From the NCBI GenBank assembly GCA_025774205.1, contig JALGWK010000170.1, forward strand, positions 1 to 5,379: DNA of 5,379 nt. The letters run 5' to 3'. Below are positions 2,746 through 5,379 of the stretch, piece by piece (the stretch's first letter is position 1; each line of letters opens with the position of its first letter). The notes under the pieces are model-generated. The model was not told the DNA's origin. It did not search any database and saw only the letters and a list, made by a program, of their open reading frames with translations. The DNA is from a bacterium. GTDB taxonomy: Bacteria > Blakebacterota > Blakebacteria > Blakebacterales > Blakebacteraceae. The translations under genes and the position numbers were made by a program.

Positions 2746-2943
2746 TCAGACCTTGTCGTTCGTGGCGCGTCTCCGCTGCTTCCGCTTCTGGCTGAGCTTG
2801 CGCTGGTGTTTGCGCTCTGACGGCTTGAGGTGGTAGCGCTTGCGCTTAAGATCGGTCGTGATCCCCTCCTTCTTTACCTGTTTCTGGAAACGCTTGAGGG
2901 TCTTCTCGAAGCTCTCATTATCACGGACCTGAACGTAAGCCAC
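2746..2943 (-). CDS. rpsU: Small ribosomal subunit protein bS21
   Basis: bS21 is a small basic protein of the 30S subunit that sits near the 3' end of 16S rRNA and aids initiation. From the GTG at 2943 the product is 65 residues, typical for the family. It begins with the characteristic VQVRDNESFEKTLKRF pattern (residues 4-19), continues with KRKRYHLKPSERK, the bS21 equivalent of the usual basic-aromatic-KPSERR stretch, and ends in a very Lys/Arg-rich tail. An AAAGGA ribosome-binding site lies 10 nt upstream of this GTG. An in-frame ATG at 3018 would add 25 residues not seen in the family and has no ribosome-binding site. A promoter just downstream of the guaA coding end and a terminator after the gene suggest rpsU is largely transcribed alone, with possible read-through from guaA. 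Family certain, start likely. Confidence 0.93.
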   Translation of the reverse strand: MAYVQVRDNESFEKTLKRFQKQVKKEGITTDLKRKRYHLKPSERKHQRKLSQKRKQRRRATNDKV

Positions 2944-2953
2944 TGTTACCACA

Positions 2954-2959
2954 TCCTTT
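2954..2959 (-). promoter_or_regulatory. Ribosome-binding site of rpsU (AAAGGA)
   Basis: AAAGGA on the minus strand lies 10 nt before the GTG at 2943. It is too close to the GTG at 2952 to serve it, so it supports 2943 as the start. Confidence 0.55.
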
Positions 2960-2992
2960 ACAGCTCGGGTTTTGGCAGGGGTCTGGTCATTT

Positions 2993-3011
2993 TCGCTCAA
3001 TACCGGAGCGA
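2993..3011 (-). other. Small hairpin in the rpsU leader
   Basis: TCGCTC, a 7-nt loop and GAGCGA form a perfect 6-bp stem between the predicted rpsU promoter and its ribosome-binding site. If the predicted transcription start near 3030 is right, it lies about 20 nt into the 87-nt leader. Leaders of ribosomal protein genes can bind their own product; whether this one does is unknown. Confidence 0.3.
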
Positions 3012-3019
3012 CTGCCATG

Positions 3020-3068: not shown

Positions 3069-4898
3069 TCATTCCCATTCGATCGTGGCGGGCGGTTTGT
3101 GGGTCACATCGTAAAATACCGAGGAGATGCCGGTCAACGCCTCGATGCCGTGGACCATCTCATCCACCGTCGACCAAGGCAGATCGGCGAACTTCGCGGT
3201 CATGGCCTCGGTGCTGTAAACCGGACGGAGGACGACGCATTCCCCGCCTGACGCGGGACCAAGCGGCAGCAGGACGGTGATCAGCTGCCAGGCACTGCGA
3301 TCGAGTCCGGCCGTGGTGAGTATCCTCATGGCAATGGCGTCAACTTCCTGAAGCAGCGAGAGCCGGTCGGGTGTGACAGAGGCAGCCCTCGTGATGAGCT
3401 GACCCGGGTCGTTACGGCTTACCGAATAGATCACCCGGTTGATCTCCCTGATCTCATTGGTGATCCGGGTGGAGACGTCCTCGAGGGCTCGCCACTCACG
3501 CTCCCCGCCATTCAGCATGACCGGGTGGGCGTAGGTCCGGTAGTCACCCTGGACACCGACCGACCTGGTCGGCAGAACCCGTGCGTCGTAGCCTGCCCCG
3601 GCCGCGATCTCAGCGGCGCGGGCCTCCGCCTCAGCCATCAAGACGCGCTCATCCTCCATGATCTCGGCACCGCTGTCGCAGAGGATCCGCACTCCCAGCC
3701 CGGGACCGGGAAAGGGATGTCTCCAGACGAGCGCCTCGGGCAGACCGAGTGCCATCCCCGCTTCCCTGACTTCATCCTTGTAGAGGTGGGCGAGCGGTTC
3801 GATGACCTTCCCCCGTGCGATGAGCTGCTCGATCTCCTCGACCCGGTTGTGGTGGGTCTTGATGGTGGCGGCGTGCCTCGTACCACCCGTTTCGATCGTG
3901 TCGGGGTAGATGGTCCCCTGGGCCAGCAGCCAGCCCTCCTCCAGGTCGATCCCGCCCAGCTGGTCACTGGCGACCTCGACGAACATCCGGCCGATGATCC
4001 TCCGCTTCTCCTCCGGATCGGTCACCCCTTCGAGCGGGGTGAGGAAACGGTCGACCGCGTCTACATGTTCCAGGTTGTCATAGCCCAAATCGGAAAAGGC
4101 CGCGATCACATCACGCGACTCGTTCTTCCGCATCAGACCGTTATCGATGTGGACCCCCTTCACCCGCTCCGGTCCGATTGTCTGGTTCAGCAGAGCGAAG
4201 CAGACGGTAGAGTCGACTCCGCCCGAGACCAGCAGCAGCACCCGGTCATCTCCGACCTGGTCGGCTATGTCCCGGCTTATCTCATCTATGTAGTCACCGA
4301 CGTTCCACTCCCGTGGTGCCCCGCAGAGATCGATGAAGTTCTCCAGCATCCGCATGCCGTTCGGGGTATGGGTCACCTCGGGATGGAACTGGAAACCGTA
4401 CCTGTGACGGGTGGAATCCCCCATCGCGGCGATCGGGCAGTCCTCGGTGGAGCCGAGAACTTCGAAGCCGTCGGGCAGCTGCACGATCTGGTCCCCGTGA
4501 CTCATCCAGACCTCTTCCCGGTCGGAGAGTCCGCGCAGGGGGCCTTCCCCGGCGGCGATCCTCAGGGTCGCGGTCCCGAATTCCCTCACCTCACCGCGGG
4601 CGACTTGCCCCCCAAGCTGCTGGGCCAGCAGGTGATGCCCGTAGCAGAGTCCCAGCATCGGCAGATTGTATTCGAAGAGTTCAGCGTTGTAAGGCGGTTG
4701 ACTTGGATCGTAGACGCTGCTCGGTCCACCGGAGAGGATGATGCCGACGGCATGTTCCAGGACCGCCGCGTCGACGTCGGGCGGCACGATCTCCGAATAC
4801 ATGCCGAGCCGCCTGATACGATTGGCGATCAGGTGAGCGTACTGGCCCCCGAAGTCGAGGACGGCAATGAAGGATCTTGAGGGGATTTCAGTGGTCAT
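3069..4898 (-). CDS. guaA: GMP synthase (glutamine-hydrolysing), long eukaryote-like form
   Basis: GuaA converts XMP, ATP and glutamine to GMP in the cytoplasm, the last step of guanine nucleotide synthesis. From the ATG at 4898 it has 609 residues, against about 525 in E. coli. The class I glutaminase domain shows LDFGGQY at 14-20, GLCYGHH with catalytic Cys85, and FHPEVTH with His172 and Glu174. The ATP-pyrophosphatase domain shows the SGGVDS loop at 225-230, HIDNGLMRKNE at 250-260, LAQGTIYPDTIE at 325-336, and HPFPGPGLGVRIL at 394-406. The dimerisation domain carries SVGVQGDYRTY (446-456), about 95 extra residues, then RPVYSTEAMTA and the terminal KPPATIEWE. The extra part and motifs such as HIDNG.MRK resemble the human enzyme more than the E. 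coli one. The start is 16 nt after the nadB stop; no clear ribosome-binding site is seen. An upstream ATG at 4964 would overlap nadB. All catalytic motifs are intact. Confidence 0.97.
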   Translation of the reverse strand: MTTEIPSRSFIAVLDFGGQYAHLIANRIRRLGMYSEIVPPDVDAAVLEHAVGIILSGGPSSVYDPSQPPYNAELFEYNLPMLGLCYGHHLLAQQLGGQVARGEVREFGTATLRIAAGEGPLRGLSDREEVWMSHGDQIVQLPDGFEVLGSTEDCPIAAMGDSTRHRYGFQFHPEVTHTPNGMRMLENFIDLCGAPREWNVGDYIDEISRDIADQVGDDRVLLLVSGGVDSTVCFALLNQTIGPERVKGVHIDNGLMRKNESRDVIAAFSDLGYDNLEHVDAVDRFLTPLEGVTDPEEKRRIIGRMFVEVASDQLGGIDLEEGWLLAQGTIYPDTIETGGTRHAATIKTHHNRVEEIEQLIARGKVIEPLAHLYKDEVREAGMALGLPEALVWRHPFPGPGLGVRILCDSGAEIMEDERVLMAEAEARAAEIAAGAGYDARVLPTRSVGVQGDYRTYAHPVMLNGGEREWRALEDVSTRITNEIREINRVIYSVSRNDPGQLITRAASVTPDRLSLLQEVDAIAMRILTTAGLDRSAWQLITVLLPLGPASGGECVVLRPVYSTEAMTAKFADLPWSTVDEMVHGIEALTGISSVFYDVTHKPPATIEWE

Positions 4899-4914
4899 GG
4901 TTGTGAATCTGTAT

Positions 4915-5379
4915 TCAGGGGCTGACAACAGTCCAGTCGAATGTGACGAAGGTGTCTTTACCATCCAGCGTCGGGTCCCGGTCGGGATAGTCGGTCACGA
5001 AATGGAGTCCCCGGCTCTCCCTGCGGCTACGGGCGGCGTTGGTGATGAGAAGCGCCACCTGGGAGAGGTTCCGGAGTTCCAGCAGTTCCGCGGTCAGCCT
5101 GGTCCAGCGGTAGTATCGCTCGGTTTCCTGGGCGATGACGGTGAGTCGTCTGGCCGCCCGACGGTGAGTCGTCTGGCCGCCCGCTCGAGGCGGTCGCGTG
5201 AGCGGACGAGACCAACATAGTCCCACAGGAGGGTGCGGATCTCTGTCCGGTCATGGATCAGGAGGACCCGTTCGACAGTCCTGGTCGTGCCGGCCGCGTC
5301 CCACCCGGGTGACGGCACCTCGAGCTGTTCGGTGGAGGCCAGCTGCTCCCTGGCGGCGTTCGCGGTCTGTTCGGCGAAG
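4915..5379 (-). pseudogene. nadB: L-aspartate oxidase, C-terminal part, frameshifted by a tandem duplication (5' end outside window)
   Basis: NadB oxidises L-aspartate to iminoaspartate, using O2 or fumarate, in the first step of de novo NAD synthesis. Only the C-terminal helical domain is visible. The first 73 codons (5378-5160) end with the typical RTLLWDYVGLVRS and RLERAARRL pattern. The frame then runs out of register through a second copy of a 23-bp repeat and stops at 5094-5096 after a non-homologous tail. Homology resumes at 5136 in another frame for 73 codons with ETERYYRW, ELLELRNLSQVA and the family hallmark RRESRGLHFVTDYP, ending at the stop 4915-4917. Deleting one repeat copy joins the two parts exactly and in frame. 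The FAD-binding and catalytic regions lie beyond the right edge. guaA follows after 16 nt. Family assignment is firm; whether the break is real in the organism cannot be told from one sequence. Confidence 0.88.
5137..5182. repeat. Perfect 23-bp tandem duplication inside nadB
   Basis: Positions 5137-5159 and 5160-5182 are identical over all 23 bp; the periodicity extends one base to 5183 and is broken at 5136 and 5184. The length is not a multiple of three, so the second copy causes the nadB frameshift. The encoded segment AARRLTV appears in both the upstream and downstream reading frames, the signature of a recent duplication. Confidence 0.95.

Follow-up and report, generated by a model that had tools for sequence, protein, structure and literature searches.

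A perfect 23-bp tandem duplication that splits nadB in a draft bacterial genome is most likely an assembly artefact

The window analyzed here, a stretch of 5,379 nucleotides, is a complete contig (C457) of a draft MAG of 527 contigs and 3.09 Mb (85.85% complete, 4.84% contamination), whose source resembles Latescibacterota. Its minus strand carries intact genes resembling the RnfD and RnfC electron-transport subunits (1-2493), a small ORF like ribosomal protein S21 lies at 2746-3018, and an intact guaA (GMP synthase; 3069..4913, minus strand) was assigned from the ORF list and the sister loci L010 and L011. guaA is the next gene after nadB (L-aspartate oxidase), an order common to both sister loci. 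Within nadB, Tandem Repeats Finder, run on the window, detected 2.0 copies of a 23-bp unit at 5137-5183 with a 100% match and no indels, and together with an exact pattern search it places the two copies of GACGGTGAGTCGTCTGGCCGCCC at 5137..5159 and 5160..5182, neither with an assigned strand. Base 5183 matches as well, giving a 1-bp overhang past the two copies. The two identical adjacent copies at 5137-5182 that an earlier note had described from the letters alone are therefore real features of the record, and only ~3e-10 such runs would be expected by chance in the window. An exact search of the whole 3.09-Mb assembly found the unit only at the nadB site, which rules out a dispersed repeat or mobile element as its source. 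Hairpin-driven instability is likewise ruled out, as the region folds no better than shuffled sequences (z -0.48), and an RNA element at the repeat was rejected, the window being free of any Rfam match.

Two nadB fragments flank the repeat on the minus strand, both assigned by TIGR00551, NF006567, and sister alignment: one in the 5' frame (5163..5378) and a C-terminal one in the 3' frame that runs through the stop codon (4915..5160). TIGR00551 positions 381-447 match 5163-5369 (minus strand) in the 5' frame and positions 441-489 match 4984-5160 (minus strand) in the other, while NF006567 is matched at positions 399-466 and 462-523, respectively. The two window frames thus match consecutive parts of the NadB family profiles; they meet on the 23-bp unit gap-free, and the profile continues without loss. 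These matches agree with the earlier note, which had placed a change of NadB frame at the repeat and held that removal of a copy would rejoin the halves: without the second unit, both frames become one.

The contig ends on the right 196 bp past the repeat, and its last 36 bp (5344..5379, no strand assigned) are identical to the first 36 bp of contig C103 (G000:C103:1-36), an unmerged overlap 160 bp from the repeat. C103 holds the first 419 nadB codons, uninterrupted and with no stop, and matches TIGR00551 positions 2-384 over the cut-off; together with the two window pieces it covers the NadB equivalog profile over its whole length. In contrast to the family, the gene in this assembly is split twice, by the 23-bp repeat and by the contig break, where the short end overlap was left unjoined. 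Read separately, the three pieces cover residues 1-419, 409-473, and 482-554 of the sister protein, and sister residues 474-481 correspond to the 23-bp unit. Internal stops are absent from all pieces, the repeat being the only lesion seen, and nadB differs from its sister at 292 codons (189 synonymous, 103 non-synonymous).

Comparison with relatives, which the earlier note had proposed as a check, returned intact, single-copy genes. The nearest relatives are a same-genus MAG (JALGVQ010000007.1) and a Candidatus Latescibacterota MAG. The same-genus sister has an intact nadB of 554 aa that scores 572 bits against TIGR00551, over the cut-off, and also exceeds the NF006567 cut-off; nadB is intact in the same-family genome too. 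The sister alignment contains one copy of the unit region, and the duplication is absent from both relatives having nadB. In the MAG itself, nadA (C283) and nadC (C48) are present, intact, and over their profile cut-offs. Nicotinate phosphoribosyltransferase (pncB) was not found in the MAG, weak evidence at 85.85% completeness. An intact second nadB, suggested earlier as something to look for, was also not found in a profile search of the MAG, again weak evidence given the incomplete assembly; the other strong TIGR00551 match, a 573-aa ORF on C359 (348 bits), was rejected because it reads as SdhA, with an SdhB-like ORF as its neighbor. We saw no sign that the organism could dispense with NAD synthesis, or of a gene that would let it tolerate the loss of nadB.

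Lesions of this type recur elsewhere in the MAG. We searched 557 kb of its contigs (18% of the MAG) for exact tandem duplications of at least 10 bp, and classed as frame-breaking those flanked on each side by 150 nt or more of open frame, with the two frames meeting on the unit. The sample contains 21 perfect tandem duplications, 15 of which are not a multiple of three in length, and nine are frame-breaking two-copy cases (16.2 per Mb) with units of 10, 22, 22, 23, 28, 28, 49, 53, and 104 bp; all nine extend 0-1 bp beyond the two copies. Perfect duplications break the frames of waaA (lipid IVA KDO transferase; 10 bp, L009:2805-2824 on G000:C103), ppdK (pyruvate phosphate dikinase; 22 bp, L120:375-418 on G000:C10), a DUF1846 gene (22 bp, L161:3043-3086 on G000:C26), and a TrkA-type channel gene (104 bp, L159:267-474 on G000:C24), and further frames are broken in a TonB-dependent receptor (28 bp) and a TolC-like efflux protein (53 bp). 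At the DUF1846 gene, one frame matches Pfam profile positions 2-176 and the second frame positions 170-331. In alignments, the sister waaA is intact and single-copy, and the sister is also single-copy at ppdK and DUF1846. At the TrkA-type locus the sister has ~80 bp of different coding sequence in place of the first 104-bp copy; since a simple duplication only adds sequence, while a wrong join can both add and remove it, this locus favors a wrong join. Two of the nine cases, L225 and L232, have no family assignment. The former (L225:6806-6950 on G000:C109) lies in repetitive coding sequence (LDAGLDTGTPKVEEV...) that contains exact tandem units of 28 and 57 bp, and it is the shorter unit that breaks the frame. 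An apparently non-coding stretch (L202:756-823 on G000:C311) contains a 32-bp repeat with inverted arms CTCGAC/GTCGAG and imperfect copies around it, and is probably a natural intergenic repeat family.

As controls we used 78 loci (756 kb) from other assemblies and phyla. These contain two frame-breaking cases (2.6 per Mb, about six times below the MAG), one of them apparently just past the end of guaA; the difference has a Fisher p of ~0.01, on 9 versus 2 events and across assemblies and phyla that differ. The rates of all perfect duplications are similar (30.9 per Mb in the MAG versus 44.6 in the controls) and uninformative, as in-frame arrays swell the control count, leaving the frame-breaking class as the one that differs. 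Scanning 356 kb of the same-genus MAG gave three frame-breaking cases, of 35, 38, and 76 bp per unit. In that MAG, a perfect 38-bp duplication (L148:3965-4040 on G001:C18) breaks a gene resembling isoprenylcysteine/phospholipid methyltransferases.

Traces of the assembly procedure are also visible. Among the sampled contigs, four pairs overlap at their ends by exactly 114 bp, which suggests de Bruijn assembly at k=115; a published IDBA-UD setting is -mink 65 -maxk 115 (PMC8204110). MAGs of the Meg series feature in an IDBA-UD-based study (PMC9727166), and the sister MAG has a Meg-type name matching that series; we infer that IDBA-UD assembled the window's own MAG. The frame-breaking units (10-104 bp) are all shorter than the 114-bp contig overlap. 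Short N gaps are present, indicating that the MAG was scaffolded, and the three internal gaps sampled across this and the same-genus MAG show no exact overlap across the Ns. Curation work has found that such assemblies, notably those by IDBA-UD, duplicate overlapping ends (PMC7111523). The cases described here resemble these local assembly and scaffolding errors in that sequence is doubled where flanking pieces overlap, several times per MAG, and coding frames are broken without biological decay nearby; they differ in that Ns separate the duplicated flanks in the published errors, whereas the copies here abut without N.

We therefore consider it very probable that the 23-bp duplication in nadB is an assembly artefact, an unmerged overlap written twice. 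Two pieces may have overlapped by only 23 bp at what would have been a thinly covered spot, an overlap shorter than the assembler would have needed to recognize it. The pieces would then have been joined without merging, with read-pair scaffolding or local assembly as the probable step, leaving the overlap written twice and shifting the nadB frame. The 0-1 extra bases and the units below 114 bp are as expected for unrecognized short overlaps written twice, and the unmerged 36-bp end overlap in nadB may represent such a substrate, still unjoined. An assembly error is favored by the eight other frames broken alike in 18% of the MAG, by the single-copy state of the sister at nadB and the other cleanly aligned sites, and by the absence of any other lesion from nadB together with the short unmerged contig-end overlap in the same gene. 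Counting against it, the controls belong to different assemblies and phyla, and the comparison is of 9 events with 2; L225 and L232 lack a family, the former in repetitive coding sequence; and the joins contain no N, unlike the error of PMC7111523. Similar data would be expected from a genome in which duplications truly arise at a high rate and selection is weak.

Replication slippage is well established as a maker of such repeats, and a real, very recent 23-bp slippage duplication could have inactivated nadB in the population or a subpopulation. Such a mutation would be a loss of function of the ordinary kind, reverting as often as short tandem repeats usually do, and it fits the clean repeat with its 1-bp overhang and no further lesion; the ~16 events per Mb could moreover reflect a mutator lineage, given the three cases in the same-genus MAG. 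We nevertheless regard it as unlikely, as the same lesion occurs in eight other reading frames, including waaA and ppdK, the TrkA-type locus also has substituted sequence, and neither a spare nadB nor pncB was found in the incomplete assembly, with nadA and nadC intact. Less probable still is that the lineage truly produces short, perfect tandem duplications frequently, such that many genes, nadB included, are mixed between broken and intact forms in the population. The excess of duplications in two same-genus MAGs is compatible with such a lineage but is more simply explained by a shared assembly method.

A slipped-strand phase switch, in which gain or loss of the 23-bp unit turns NAD synthesis on or off, is highly improbable. 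Phase variation through the copy number of tandem repeats is known, for example at a promoter in M. tuberculosis with a 57-bp repeat (PMC12817950), and nadB shares with it a perfect tandem unit that would change the state of the gene through its copy number, both frames becoming one on loss of the second unit. Known switches, however, vary across strains and within populations; here there are two copies only, in one assembly, with a single copy in both nadB-bearing relatives (compared across species) and no unusual DNA structure at the repeat. A switch should also be peculiar to nadB, whereas the same lesion class is scattered across unrelated genes, leaving a nadB-specific switch unsupported. 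Finally, that a lineage now taking up NAD precursors has fixed nadB as a pseudogene is barely credible, since beyond the broken frame in the MAG assembly there are no more stop codons or frameshifts, the mainly synonymous substitutions (189 versus 103 codon differences) give no sign of further decay or relaxed selection, nadA and nadC are present, and sister genomes keep nadB intact. Among the three options raised in the earlier note, assembly error is favored over the slipped-strand switch and pseudogenization, given the eight other broken frames and the single-copy sister.

These results indicate that the nadB duplication is present in the sequence record and most likely absent from the organism, whose own nadB is most likely ordinary, intact, and present in one copy. 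They also serve as a warning that what looks like a pseudogene or a switch in a draft MAG can stem from unmerged overlaps, for which a search for exact tandem repeats with two copies and a unit below k offers a cheap quality check. If the sampled rate holds, this MAG contains ~50 genes with false breaks of this kind, which would distort metabolic predictions, for example by suggesting NAD or lipid A auxotrophy.
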